From NCBI GenBank assembly GCA_004296455.1, contig AP018280.1:3596001-3660000 (forward strand): DNA of 64,000 bases, in the 5' to 3' direction. A program made the position numbers and the translations under genes. Shown here in pieces: positions 4,180 through 61,212 of the stretch; the first letter of the stretch is position 1; each line of letters begins with the position of its first letter. The notes beneath the pieces are model-generated. The model had not been told where the DNA came from, made no database searches, and saw only the letters and a list, made by a program, of their open reading frames with translations. Source of the DNA: Calothrix sp. NIES-4101. GTDB lineage: Bacteria; Cyanobacteriota; Cyanobacteriia; Cyanobacteriales; Nostocaceae.

Positions 4180-4575
4180 ATGGCGCGTCAAACAGGAAAA
4201 AAAGGTGGGAGCAAGAAGACAAAACGTAATGTTCCCAACGGAGTTGCTTACATCCAATCCACTTTCAACAATAGCATTGTCACCATCACCGATCAAAACG
4301 GCGATGTTATATCCTGGGCAAGTGCTGGCTCCAGTGGTTTTAAAGGCGCAAAAAAAGGAACCCCTTTTGCGGCTCAAACTGCTGCGGAAAGTGCAGCCAG
4401 ACGAGCAATGGACTCAGGAATGCGTCAAATAGAAGTGATGGTAAGCGGCCCCGGAGCTGGGCGCGAAACCGCAATCCGCGCATTACAAGGAGCTGGATTG
4501 GAAATTACATTGATTCGCGATATTACACCGATTCCTCACAACGGTTGTCGTCCGCCCAAGCGTCGTCGAGTTTAG
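4180..4575 (+). CDS. rpsK: 30S ribosomal protein S11
   Basis: S11 (131 residues) forms part of the platform near the mRNA exit. The conserved block with [19 protein letters not shown] and the C-terminal signature [17 protein letters not shown] are intact. A long-stem hairpin and nearly 400 bp of noncoding DNA separate it from rpoA, so a transcript boundary or attenuation point here is possible. Confidence 0.98.
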
Positions 4576-4969
4576 ACCCAATTGGTTGGGCGGTTGTTGA
4601 CAACATTTAAGAATCAATTAGTGTCACTTTCAAGCATAAGCAAAAATTACCCTTGGGAGTGACTTATGCTTGGATTTTTAGTCATTATTCCGTTTTGATT
4701 CTCCTCACTCGTATCGTGACCGTCTGAAAAAAGTGCAATGGAAGAAGTTGCGAAAACAGTAGCAATACCAAACAAAGAAACTTCCTTTTCACCCAATCAA
4801 TTAGTATCGTCCACGTTTGTTGGAATATTTTCAGATATCTACAACTAATGTTAAATCATTTCAAGTTTTAGACTTTGGAATCATCTAGAAACGATCAGGA
4901 CAAAGTGTAAATTCGACAGGTAATCTTATATTGCCTGCTAGCAGGACTGAAAACAAGGGAGGCTGCTCC
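4576..4969 (+). other. intergenic region rpsK-rpoA with hairpin and possible rpoA promoter region
   Basis: This 394-bp stretch has no recognisable gene. It holds the hairpin at 4631-4672. A 36-codon open frame at 4738-4848 is unsupported by a ribosome binding site or any recognisable motif. The length suggests a separate promoter for rpoA, but no convincing -35/-10 pair was found by eye. Confidence 0.5.
4631..4672 (+). terminator. hairpin downstream of rpsK
   Basis: A perfect 10-bp stem CAAGCATAAG / CTTATGCTTG encloses a 22-nt loop and is followed by GATTTTTA. Outside the stem, GTCACT (4623-4628) and inside the loop AGTGAC (4659-4664) offer an alternative pairing. The U-run is short, so it may be a weak terminator, attenuator or processing site inside the ribosomal protein cluster. 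Confidence 0.5.
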
Positions 4970-16817: not shown

Positions 16818-18965
16818 ATGACACCACCGATTGTTAAACGCTATCTCATTGCATTTGAAAAATACAAGTGGATTGGATTGGCTAGCTTCGCGTTAGTTGT
16901 AGCGGGTTCAACGGTGGTGGCTATGCAACCTGATCCACCTGTCAAATATATGGCAGATGCCGCATTGACTTACTCAGGCCCGCCAATTTCGTTCTCAACG
17001 ATTGGTAGTGAAATTCAACAAAAAGGACAAACTCTCACTGCGGAAGATTTACTTTCCGAGCCAATTGTACGGGCAATAATTGAGAAAACTAAACTTAAGC
17101 CCAAGCAACTGTCGGCAATGATTGCCATTGAATTTCCGAAAGCTCCTAAACCTGGTGAAACCGGGTCTAGTATTATTGAACTCAAATATCAAGATACGGA
17201 ACAAAAGCGAGCCGCAGAGGTATTACAAACCTTAATGCAAGCGGCAGTGAAGTTAAGCGCAGAAAGGAACACAGGTCAACTCAAATCTATTATTAGTAAA
17301 ATTGAGGAACGATTACCACAGGCAAAGAAAGAACTGGAAGCCGCAGAGCAAAAGCTGGAAGCATATGATCGAGTCGAACGCCCGGCTATTTTAGCAGCCG
17401 AAAATGGTAGTTTGTTAACTGCTGTAACTACAAGTCAAAGCCAGCAACGTTTATTACAACAAACTTTGATTGGCATTGATGCCCAAATTCGTAGCTTGCA
17501 GAGTAAATTAGGCTTAACTCCCACTGATGCTTATGTTTCTTCAGCATTAAGTGCAGACCTGATTTTAAACAACTTGCGATCGCAAATTTTTCAAATCGAT
17601 TCCCAAATCGAAGTCTTAAAAAAAGATTTGCGTCCCCAACACCCAACAATGGTGCAGTTGATGCGGCAAAAAGAAGCTTCGGAAAAACTATTCCGAGAGC
17701 GTGCCAATGAAGTTGTTAGTGGTGGTGGTAATGCTGCACCTCTACCAGCCAGTGTTTCGGCGTTGCGTGCCCGTAGTAATTTAGACCCGGCACGTCAAGA
17801 ACTCGCAAACCAACTAGTTGCACTCCAAACCCAACGTGATACTCTCATCCAACAACTGAATAATGAAATTCGCCAAGAAGCAAAACTTCGCCAAGAATAT
17901 TCCCTCATCCCCAACAAACAACTAGAAAGAAGTCGTCTCGAACAGCAGATACTCCTCAAAAAAGCTGTTTACGACCAAATGCAGTTAAAAATCACGGATG
18001 CCAAAACTGCTGAAGCAGAAACCGTCAGCAGCTTGAGTATTGCTAGACCTCCTCGCGTGATTGCTGATCTCAAACCCCCGAAAAGTGTCCCTGTGACTTT
18101 AGGCGCAGGAGGATTCTTTGCAATTATTATTGGTGGTGGTGTCATATTTTTATTAGGTTCCCTCGAAGGCACTTTCAAAACCCAAGAAGATATTCGCGAC
18201 AACTTGAAACAAAAAGAAGTTGCCCTGTTGGGAGAGTTACCTTTACTACCAGTAGATGACCTTGAAAAAGGGGAATTACCAGTAATAATTTCTCCAGAAT
18301 CACCATATTTAGAATATTATGAGAAATTTCGCAGTAACTTACGTCGAATTGGCAATAGCAATTTAAAGGTAGTATTAATCACTAGCGTTGGTAGTTCAGA
18401 AGGTAAAACAATTAGTGCCTACAACTTAGGAATAGCATCAGCCCGGGCTGGGAAACGTACTTTAATCATTGAAACGGATTTGCGATCGCCCTCTTACTGC
18501 CAATCGTTAGGTGTGGCAGTAGACCCCAACGCGACAATTGAACCATTACGTTATTATGCCAGCCCCAGCGAATGTGTCCGCCTCGTCCCACAAGTCGAAA
18601 ATTTATACATCGTTCCTAGCCCTGGGCCAGTCCGAAATTCGGCTGCAATCATCGAATCAAGTGAAATTCGCCGACTCATGGAAGACGCAAAACAACGTTT
18701 TGACTTTGTTATTTTGGATACTAGCCCGCTAGGATTATCCAACGACCCATTATTAATTCAACCATACAGTGATGGTATGATTATGGTGGCACGACCCAAT
18801 TACACCCAAGAAAGCGTATTTAGTGAAGCCATCGAGCAATTATCTGAGTCAGACATTGACTTACTGGGTGCAATAGTTAACGGTGCTGATATTATTGTCG
18901 CCCCGCCTCAGCCAGTGGTAGTTGTAGATGAAATGGATAAGGTTGCAGCAAACGGAAGAAAGTAA
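16818..18965 (+). CDS. GumC/Wzc-like polysaccharide copolymerase with CpsD/BY-kinase domain
   Basis: Inner-membrane copolymerase (715 residues) controlling exopolysaccharide chain length and export. Wzz domain with TM1 at about 16-34, a long coiled coil (170-400) and TM2 at about 430-450 after the Pro-rich KPPKSVP. The cytoplasmic ATPase domain has Walker A TSVGSSEGKT (about 522-531), Walker A' LIIETDLRSP and Walker B FDFVILDTSP. The C-terminus (VVVVDEMDKVAANGRK) lacks the tyrosine cluster that BY-kinases autophosphorylate. Together with the SLBB gene it forms the trans-envelope exporter; polymerase and flippase are not nearby. Confidence 0.9.
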   Translation: MTPPIVKRYLIAFEKYKWIGLASFALVVAGSTVVAMQPDPPVKYMADAALTYSGPPISFSTIGSEIQQKGQTLTAEDLLSEPIVRAIIEKTKLKPKQLSAMIAIEFPKAPKPGETGSSIIELKYQDTEQKRAAEVLQTLMQAAVKLSAERNTGQLKSIISKIEERLPQAKKELEAAEQKLEAYDRVERPAILAAENGSLLTAVTTSQSQQRLLQQTLIGIDAQIRSLQSKLGLTPTDAYVSSALSADLILNNLRSQIFQIDSQIEVLKKDLRPQHPTMVQLMRQKEASEKLFRERANEVVSGGGNAAPLPASVSALRARSNLDPARQELANQLVALQTQRDTLIQQLNNEIRQEAKLRQEYSLIPNKQLERSRLEQQILLKKAVYDQMQLKITDAKTAEAETVSSLSIARPPRVIADLKPPKSVPVTLGAGGFFAIIIGGGVIFLLGSLEGTFKTQEDIRDNLKQKEVALLGELPLLPVDDLEKGELPVIISPESPYLEYYEKFRSNLRRIGNSNLKVVLITSVGSSEGKTISAYNLGIASARAGKRTLIIETDLRSPSYCQSLGVAVDPNATIEPLRYYASPSECVRLVPQVENLYIVPSPGPVRNSAAIIESSEIRRLMEDAKQRFDFVILDTSPLGLSNDPLLIQPYSDGMIMVARPNYTQESVFSEAIEQLSESDIDLLGAIVNGADIIVAPPQPVVVVDEMDKVAANGRK

Positions 18966-59597: not shown

Positions 59598-59741
59598 GGG
59601 AAATAACAATCTCTAGAAACCAGGTTTCTCTGGAACCAATCATGACTAAATTTTTCAGTATCAGCCATTAAAAACCCGCTTTCTCCCCTCATCGAATGCT
59701 GAATGTGGCGTAGGTATTTCAGGTTTGCACGTTGGGGGAGA
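59598..59741. repeat. intergenic repeat unit, copy 1
   Basis: Starts GGAAATAACAATCTCTAGAA, continues CCAGGTTTCTCTGGAACCA, and ends TTTCAGGTTTGCACGTTGG. Copy 2 lies 157 bp downstream with roughly 85 percent identity by eye. Contains AACCAGGTTTCTCTGG, itself palindromic. Confidence 0.8.
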
Positions 59742-59752
59742 AATCGAGTTAC

Positions 59753-59895
59753 TGGGAAAACGATAATCTCTAAAAACCAGGTTTCTCTGGAACCAAGCAC
59801 GACTAAACTTTTAAGCATCAGCAATTAAAAACCTGCTTTTTCCCTTCACCGAATATTGAATGTGGTGTGGGTATTTCAGGTTTGCGTGTTGGAGT
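59753..59895. repeat. intergenic repeat unit, copy 2
   Basis: Begins TGGGAAAACGATAATCTCTA and continues CCAGGTTTCTCTGGAACCAA, ending TTTCAGGTTTGCGTGTTGG. A partial third copy of the right half (ACCGAATGCTGAATGTGGTG) is at 61290-61365. Confidence 0.8.
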
Positions 59896-60059
59896 GGGTT
59901 AGTAGAAAGTGTGTTTATGAGTTTGTCGTGGTAATTGGGGATTATTTGTAGCGGAGAAACCATATTTCTTGAGATTATTCTGCTACTTGAAAATGTCAAC
60001 AAATTTTATTGTCTCATAGTGGAGGAAAGGGAAAATTAAAGAAGTAAAGGAAGCAGTTA

Positions 60060-60818
60060 TTACACAAGCAATACTAAACGAAAACCGTCGAAGTAGTTAC
60101 GGAGGAAGTGCGTATTGAAAGTGCGATTGGCACTACGACAGTTTTCTGGGAAGTTAACCCAGGAACCACCACGTAGCAATTTTAATTGATTGTCATTACC
60201 ATTTTCCCAAGCTCTCCCATCTGTTGGTGCGCCATGATAATTATCATGCCAAACATCTTGGCACCATTCCCACACATTTCCGTGCATATCATATAATCCA
60301 AAAGCATTAGGTGGAAATTTTCCTACTTCTGTTGTTTCTTTTCTGTAAATACCTTTTGGTGCAGAACCATAGGTATAGTTACCATCATAATTTGCTAATT
60401 CGCTTGTAATTGTCTCACCAAAACAAAACGCTTTAGTTGTATCCGCACGACAGGCATATTCCCATTCTGCCTCACTAGGTAATCTATAATTTCGTGCTGT
60501 TTTCCAACTGATTTTTTGACAAAACTCGACAGCATCATCCCAAGAGACACTGTCAACAGGTCGATTTGCACCTTTAAAATAGGAAGGATTATGCCCCATA
60601 ATGACTTCATACTGCGCTTGGGTAACAGTAAATTTACCGATATAAAAAGGCTGAATAGTAACTCGGTGTTGAGGCCTTTCATAACTGGAGTGTCCTTGTT
60701 CATTATCTGGGGAACCCATGAGAAAAGTTCCTCCAGGAATTAGTACCATTTCTAAATTCACACCATTCCCCAAGTTTTCTTTAAAAATTTCTGCCACTTC
60801 AACACTCCCATTTTCCAA
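60060..60818 (-). CDS. formylglycine-generating-enzyme-like (SUMF1) protein with a DGR-type variable C-terminus
   Basis: A 252-residue FGE-sulfatase-fold protein: EMVLIPGGTFLMGS, PVDSVSWDDAVEFCQKI, RLPSEAEWEYACRA and NAFGLYDMHGNVWEWCQD. The C-terminus RGGSW...NCRSANR...GFRLV has only one Cys where true FGE needs two, so it is unlikely to make formylglycine. Residues 221-244 (60087-60158) carry 11 NNC codons; the 4 Phe codons there are all TTC, whereas the other 11 in the gene are all TTT. This is the mark left by adenine mutagenesis of AAC codons in a diversity-generating retroelement. No reverse transcriptase or template repeat is in the window. Confidence 0.85.
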   Translation of the reverse strand: MENGSVEVAEIFKENLGNGVNLEMVLIPGGTFLMGSPDNEQGHSSYERPQHRVTIQPFYIGKFTVTQAQYEVIMGHNPSYFKGANRPVDSVSWDDAVEFCQKISWKTARNYRLPSEAEWEYACRADTTKAFCFGETITSELANYDGNYTYGSAPKGIYRKETTEVGKFPPNAFGLYDMHGNVWEWCQDVWHDNYHGAPTDGRAWENGNDNQLKLLRGGSWVNFPENCRSANRTFNTHFLRNYFDGFRLVLLV

Positions 60819-61098
60819 AAATCCCGATCGCTTAAATGAGTTTGAGTCTATTTATTATTTATAGACGATCGCAAGAATTTAACAATAAATGGATCAAGCA
60901 ACGGTGGGATGAATTTGAAAAATTTCGTAATTTTCTGTAGGCTACGCTCAAAAATGTCTTAACGTATACACGTAGTGCTATGAAAATCATCAAACTCATG
61001 TTATTTTAACTAGCAAAACGCACTTACATGATTTTTATACTTGGATGCAAAATCATATTTTCAGACTGGGAGAACTCCAAGTAAAAAAATGCCCAGTT

Positions 61099-61212
61099 GT
61101 CATTGCGTAACTTGCTTCTCCATTTCGGAGTATGGAGCAAAGCGGAATGTAGGCAAAGCCTTGCCGCAGGGTAGCAACCGCAAGATATTGGGATTGCTTC
61201 GCTCGCAATGAC
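61099..61212. repeat. dispersed palindromic element with 9-bp inverted ends
   Basis: 114 bp bounded by GTCATTGCG (61099-61107) and CGCAATGAC (61204-61212). The interior has further short palindromes (GCAAAGCCTTGC-like, TTGCGGTTGC in complement) and is more GC-rich than its surroundings. Resembles the ATTGCGAGCGAAGCAATC-type intergenic repeats of filamentous cyanobacteria, from memory. Confidence 0.7.

Follow-up and report, generated by a model that had tools for sequence, protein, structure and literature searches.

Does the gene at positions 60060 to 60818 of the window, by which is meant the whole stretch of 64,000 nucleotides that was analysed, end in sequence written by a diversity-generating retroelement (DGR), and if so, what became of the reverse transcriptase (RT) and the template repeat (TR) that wrote it? 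The first-pass annotation had proposed an orphan variable region (VR) served by a cassette located elsewhere in the genome. The reading preferred here, which is considered probable, is that the stretch represents a DGR target frozen after loss of the machinery, the cassette being lost and not remote. A DGR origin of the VR, taking all readings that involve a DGR together, is held with high confidence. Orphan DGR targets in cyanobacteria have already been published (PMC7517822), and trans activity as well as degenerate DGR loci are on record (PMC10907252); a DGR survey (PMC8144416) was, by its own note, unable to detect remote targets.

The gene and its codon signature

The gene (60060..60818, minus strand) encodes a stand-alone FGE-sulfatase domain protein of the C-type-lectin fold (PF03781, E 1.3e-57), with 252 codons when read from a TTG at 60818; the start is uncertain, the other candidate being a GTG at 60797 directly ahead of the conserved domain. 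Counted from the TTG, codon 221 occupies 60156-60158 and codon 244 occupies 60087-60089. These 24 codons (60087..60158, minus strand) are regarded as the core of the former VR on the grounds of their NNC content and their fit to the TR of a relative. Position, PF03781 match and fold matches to 5hha and 2y3c together place the VR close to the 3′ end of a gene of the C-type-lectin fold. A model of the protein built from 34 sequences (mean pLDDT 80.2, lower within the VR) is nearest to PvdO (5hha) in structure comparison, and the DGR variable protein 2y3c is third-nearest with a TM of 0.79. Membership of this fold family suggests that the protein may bind a ligand.

NNC codons make up 13 of the 24 codons of this core versus 24 of 229 elsewhere in the gene (Fisher p 1.5e-6), and no 24-codon stretch of codons 1-220 holds more than five. 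The 11 NNC codons named in the first-pass annotation (AAC three times, TTC four times, and CAC, CTC, TAC and GAC once each) were recounted exactly as claimed, and GCC and CGC complete the 13. Also upheld on recounting is the split in phenylalanine codons, all four inside the core being TTC and all 11 outside being TTT, along with the predominance of TAT among the tyrosine codons outside (11 TAT, one TAC). Among the open frames of the window with at least 250 codons, 13 NNC codons are reached by 8 of 11,644 stretches, all within two genes. The same frames contain 121 TTC and 370 TTT, from which the chance of four TTC out of four is 0.004.

The body of the gene is maintained by selection, as follows from dN/dS values of 0.15 against the relative L036 and 0.20 against the relative L223. 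Compared with L223, the body shows a pN of 0.109 and a pS of 0.41, and the tail at the VR end a pN of 0.30 and a pS of 0.21. Interspersed repeats flank the gene, downstream at 59606-59978 (two copies of about 150 bases) and upstream at 61070-61203 (about 130 bases), and these match many contigs of two related genomes, G001 and G002. No usable orthologous locus was obtained from either genome, the best N-terminal match (G001 contig C353, 88% over 146 bases) reaching the contig end within the FGE gene.

Intact cassettes in relatives and the fit to their templates

The best named relative of the gene, at 69% identity, serves as target in a complete DGR that lies on a contig of Calothrix sp. CSU_2_0 (L036). 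This cassette consists of a kinase-FGE target, Avd (114 aa, matching NF033474 and PF22296), an RT of 352 aa that carries GLPIGNLTSQ, the TR, which encodes RGGSWNNNPENCRSANRNNNTRDNRNNNNGFRVVL, and then a structured RNA element. G002, a genome of the window's own genus, contains the same cassette with a 100% identical RT, a second cassette on contig C102 and a TR without an RT on contig C37. The proposal of a DGR-derived VR on this fold is thus borne out in relatives, where the same type of gene adjoins TR, RT and Avd. The closest relative found, by identity, is L223 (74%), a gene of G050; the matches listed in a search of 99 family genomes include nothing from G050 that is close to the DGR RT. 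Among those matches, 25 of the 99 genomes have a long DGR RT match (at least 60% identity over more than 300 residues) and eight have short or broken pieces only.

The stretch 60066..60178 (minus strand) aligns with the TR of the G002/L036 cassette at 76% over 113 bases. Relative to the L036 TR, the VR is changed at 14 of the 32 A sites and at 11 of the 73 non-A sites (p 0.003), a bias that non-DGR tails share. The bodies of the window and L036 genes differ at 37 of 185 A sites and 105 of 408 non-A sites, so that the VR exceeds the body in variability at template A (p 0.006) and is less variable than the body at non-A sites at a borderline level only (p 0.05).

The 11 non-A mismatches can be placed against 36 TRs and 154 VR-type tails found by regular expression in the collected loci, a non-random sample. 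Thirty of the 154 tails have a TR at no more than two non-A mismatches, and the same 30, when set against their next-best TR, show 3 to 26, with 20 of them at 11 or fewer. The window VR thus falls within the next-best-TR range and greatly exceeds the 0-2 mismatches of VRs that adjoin their own TR; it is no worse a match to a foreign template than many proven VRs are. Five of its 11 non-A differences are common to L223 and hence look inherited, not decayed. With the template adjusted to the letters shared by the two genes, a step that favours both, the window gene differs at 14 of 34 A and 6 of 68 non-A sites, and L223 at 18 of 34 A and 0 of 68 non-A sites.

The motif behind variable regions

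Behind cassette VRs comes AGGACT or AGGATT, then a pyrimidine tract; behind TRs comes a sequence resembling AGCGCTC or AGTACTC, then the RNA element. The VR-type motif was found behind 23 of 28 VRs from 27 hand-chosen cassette loci, some of which lack a perfect TR match, behind none of six FGE tails of the SRSWNE type, and behind one of 29 control ORF ends. The exact AGGACT motif is absent behind the window VR, where positions 60055..60065 (minus strand, including the stop codon) read GTG TAA TAA CT, compared with GCG TGA GGA CT in relatives. This decayed flank is of the GTGTAATAACT type; its four changes stand in register with the intact form, and it is followed by the remnant of a pyrimidine-rich tract (60020..60059, minus strand, 82.5% C+T over 40 bases).

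The genome of the window (G000) holds nine PF03781 genes, two of which (L027 and L028) have no tail recognised by the regular expression, and VR-like tails were observed in five FGE genes besides that of the window (L030, L032, L033, L034 and L029). L030, L032 and L033 retain the motif and L034 does not; L029 has a TR-type flank, and L035 has none. In the best 30 loci (L221-L250) from 24 genomes, which were chosen from the 99 for a low number of contigs and the absence of an intact DGR RT from the matches listed, an NNC fraction of at least 40% was seen in 22 of 29 FGE tails and the motif in 13 of 26. RT pieces are carried by four of these 24 genomes (G008, G030, G034 and G080) among the matches listed.

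Search for DGR machinery in the genome

G000 comprises 7.59 Mb in six contigs and is rated 100% complete. It contains 12 RVT_1 matches, and four representative RTs (L001, L006, L007 and L008) score best with the group II family TIGR04416 and have a GIIM domain, L007 and L008 falling below the TIGR04416 cut-off. The hallmark of DGR RTs, (I/V/L)GxxxSQ in domain 4 (PMC3521204), is absent from domain 4 of these four. The matches of a DGR RT query in G000 and G001 all lay at 22-34%, the best Avd match in G000 had an E of 0.53, and no TR was found in G000 with the window VR or the L036 TR region as queries. The RT matches at about 0.8-22.4 kb of contig C1 were seen to mirror each other (for example 4260-4949 on the minus and 18266-18955 on the plus strand), pointing either to a large inverted repeat that contains RTs of group II type or to an artefact of assembly.

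The orphan status claimed from the window alone accordingly extends to the whole genome, in which neither a DGR RT nor Avd nor a TR turned up. The absence of both an RT and a near-identical A-rich template from the genome had been named in the first-pass annotation as one half of what would refute its proposal, and as far as the searches reach, neither is there. A remote cassette in the same genome, as the first-pass annotation had supposed, is rejected on this basis; the decayed motif and the two cassette scars described below speak against it as well.

An RNA element behind templates and its copies in the genome

In 31 collected TR loci the TR is followed by a conserved element some 140 bases long, with a deviating second half in one of them (L143). 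An alignment of 29 of the 31 (A1, leaving out L143 and L156) gives a consensus with 24 pairs, of which 17 are changed on both sides. The element behind cyanobacterial DGR TRs corresponds over its full length to RT-14 of Rfam (RF02921), which matches L036:5568-5717 with 46.5 bits against a cut-off of 48.1 and G002:C102:1272-1416 with 49.4 bits. No mention of RT-14 RNA or RF02921 was found in the open-licence papers searched; RNA adjoining the TR is predicted to belong to the DGR complex (PMC12691664).

The Rfam model reports neither of the two copies present in G000; being too insensitive here as a scar finder, it was replaced by a model (R1) built from the 29 elements of relatives. R1 detects scar 1 at C1:1410612-1410749 (144.6 bits), directly behind an FGE gene at C1:1410775, and scar 2, which stands alone, at C1:7227959-7228096 (138.7 bits); within the window it detects no such element. 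The stretches around both copies gave no match to RT or Avd at E 1e-3, and no TR lies beside either. At scar 1 the VR is followed by a TR-type flank and then by the RNA element, an arrangement that would be the expected product of recombination between a VR and a TR, as seen at this one locus. The VR of scar 1 differs from the TR on C37 of G002 at 19 of 29 A and 5 of 76 non-A sites. The L036 stretch 4214-4359, between Avd and RT, was observed to recur beside an RT-14-like element at L190:8148-8223 and L194:302-442 (G000 and C37 of G002).

Mini-cassettes without a reverse transcriptase

Several relatives carry what may be called RT-less mini-cassettes, in which a target VR, 207-324 bases of linker, a TR and an RT-14-like element follow one another with neither Avd nor RT in between. 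Such loci were observed in G002 (C37, L270), G080 (L255), G008 (L260), G011 (L261), G068 (L262), Nostoc parmelioides FACHB-3921 (L075) and Anabaena UHCC 0204 (L114). The VR end and the TR start lie 207-221 bases apart in G002 C37, G080, G008, G011 and L075, 282 in L114 and 324 in G068, compared with 1720 in L036, and the linkers between VR and TR can be aligned. Several of these VRs show no or hardly any mismatch to the adjacent TR outside its A sites although an intact DGR RT was not found in the genome. Over the five loci compared, the differences between VR and adjacent TR amount to 15/29 A and 0/76 non-A sites in G002 C37, 15/25 and 2/80 in G080, 11/21 and 6/84 in G008, 14/25 and 1/80 in G011, and 8/26 and 0/79 in G068. 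Among the matches listed, the DGR RT query has none at E 1e-5 in G011 and a single one, of 31%, in G068. R1 matches above 100 bits occur in six of the 24 chosen genomes, four of which have RT pieces among the matches listed.

A transient RT, for example a plasmid-borne one, would explain well-fitting VRs in genomes without an RT, and DGR RTs do occur on cyanobacterial plasmids (six records, 60-80% identity). It may tentatively be suggested that non-autonomous mini-DGRs form a lineage within the Nostocaceae and are rewritten by an RT acting in trans, which is gained and lost over time, for instance with plasmids; G000 would then be an end stage, with one mini-cassette collapsed to VR and RNA and several frozen targets including the window gene. 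These mini-cassettes of VR, TR and RNA, a side finding, are more novel than the orphan target itself. No report of RT-less mini-cassettes in cyanobacteria was found in the open-licence papers searched, as judged from titles and abstract starts.

Proposed history and alternative explanations

The history that best accommodates these observations would begin with an ancestral cyanobacterial DGR of the Avd-RT-TR type, whose template RNA ended in an RT-14-like element. Its AAC-rich template would have been copied into the 3′ end of the FGE/C-type-lectin gene in the lineage of the window, with random bases placed at template A. RT, Avd and template would subsequently have been lost from this lineage; at one locus the loss was probably caused by VR-TR recombination, with the RNA element ending up fused to the downstream side of the target. 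The gene in the window would have been retained under selection as a fixed binding protein while the motif behind its VR decayed. Counting against this history are that no template is known for the window's lineage, that the 11 non-A mismatches are many for a VR and its own TR, that the A-bias is not specific to DGR tails, that the VR differs from the body at non-A sites at a borderline level only, and that the recombination is read from one locus.

Alternatively, the gene may have been copied or transferred in an already diversified state from a DGR-bearing cyanobacterium or from a paralogue, without ever being rewritten at its present place. This explanation is rather unlikely, and it gains from several features of the locus: the gene is without the kinase part present in the target of L036, its flanking genes sit on separate contigs in G001 and G002, no RT-14-like element lies beside it, and the repeats on either side of it are common in the contigs of relatives. 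However, the two RT-14-like scars and the other VR-type tails retained by G000 indicate that cassettes were once resident there, and the motif remnant behind the VR either moved or arose together with the VR.

That the tail is an ordinary FGE one, in which NNC codons and variable residues came about with no DGR involved, is decidedly improbable. Tails of the SRSWNE type, which show no DGR signs, display the A-bias as well (L035 differs at 22 of 29 A versus 24 of 76 non-A sites, and L133 and L139 are alike), because the variable residues of the fold fall at the A sites of the TR; the bias was for that reason dropped as sole proof of a DGR. The 11 non-A mismatches left by the best TR also favour this explanation. 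Yet the six SRSWNE tails have 17 to 24 non-A mismatches, none carries the 3′ motif, and the NNC fraction of four of them is 0.12-0.24 and that of the other two (L077 and L242) 0.36, as opposed to 0.52 in the window tail. Codon pattern and number of non-A mismatches discriminate DGR tails from SRSWNE tails better than the A-bias does. The in-register decay of the motif behind the window VR likewise speaks against an ordinary tail.

Continued rewriting of the VR in trans, by a plasmid-borne RT or a divergent element missed by the searches, is very improbable: the plasmid RTs and the nearly perfect VR-TR matches of relatives without a detected RT would allow it, but G000 yielded no TR, its RT-14-like elements stand without one, and the motif behind the window VR has been lost.

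Implications and comparison with known systems

If the target was indeed frozen by loss of its cassette, binding sites written by a DGR persist as selected, fixed genes in a genome without detected DGR machinery. The scars that remain legible, namely the RT-14-like element, the 3′ motif and the NNC codons, would provide a sequence test of how often hypermutated sensors become domesticated after the hypermutator is lost, and also of whether RTs serve RT-less cassettes in trans.

Similar situations have been described. In cyanobacterial DGRs whose variable proteins are encoded remotely (Vallota-Eastman et al. 2020, PMC7517822), as in the window gene, the C-type-lectin domain is C-terminal, alone or behind a kinase, with the VR at the 3′ end, and all3226 of Nostoc PCC 7120 from the same paper is likewise a remnant VR without a proximal RT. 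The genomes of that paper were picked for a complete DGR, whereas G000 yielded no RT, Avd or TR. The degenerate or trans-served DGR loci of Thiohalocapsa PB-PSB1 (PMC10907252) also comprise targets without RT or TR at the locus, but intact classes exist in the same genome and some of the targets still vary. In the freshly inactivated RTs of the DiGReF paper (PMC3521204) the broken RT is still there, whereas no RT remnant was found in G000; common to both is that the products of a DGR, in those cases VR/TR pairs, outlast the RT.
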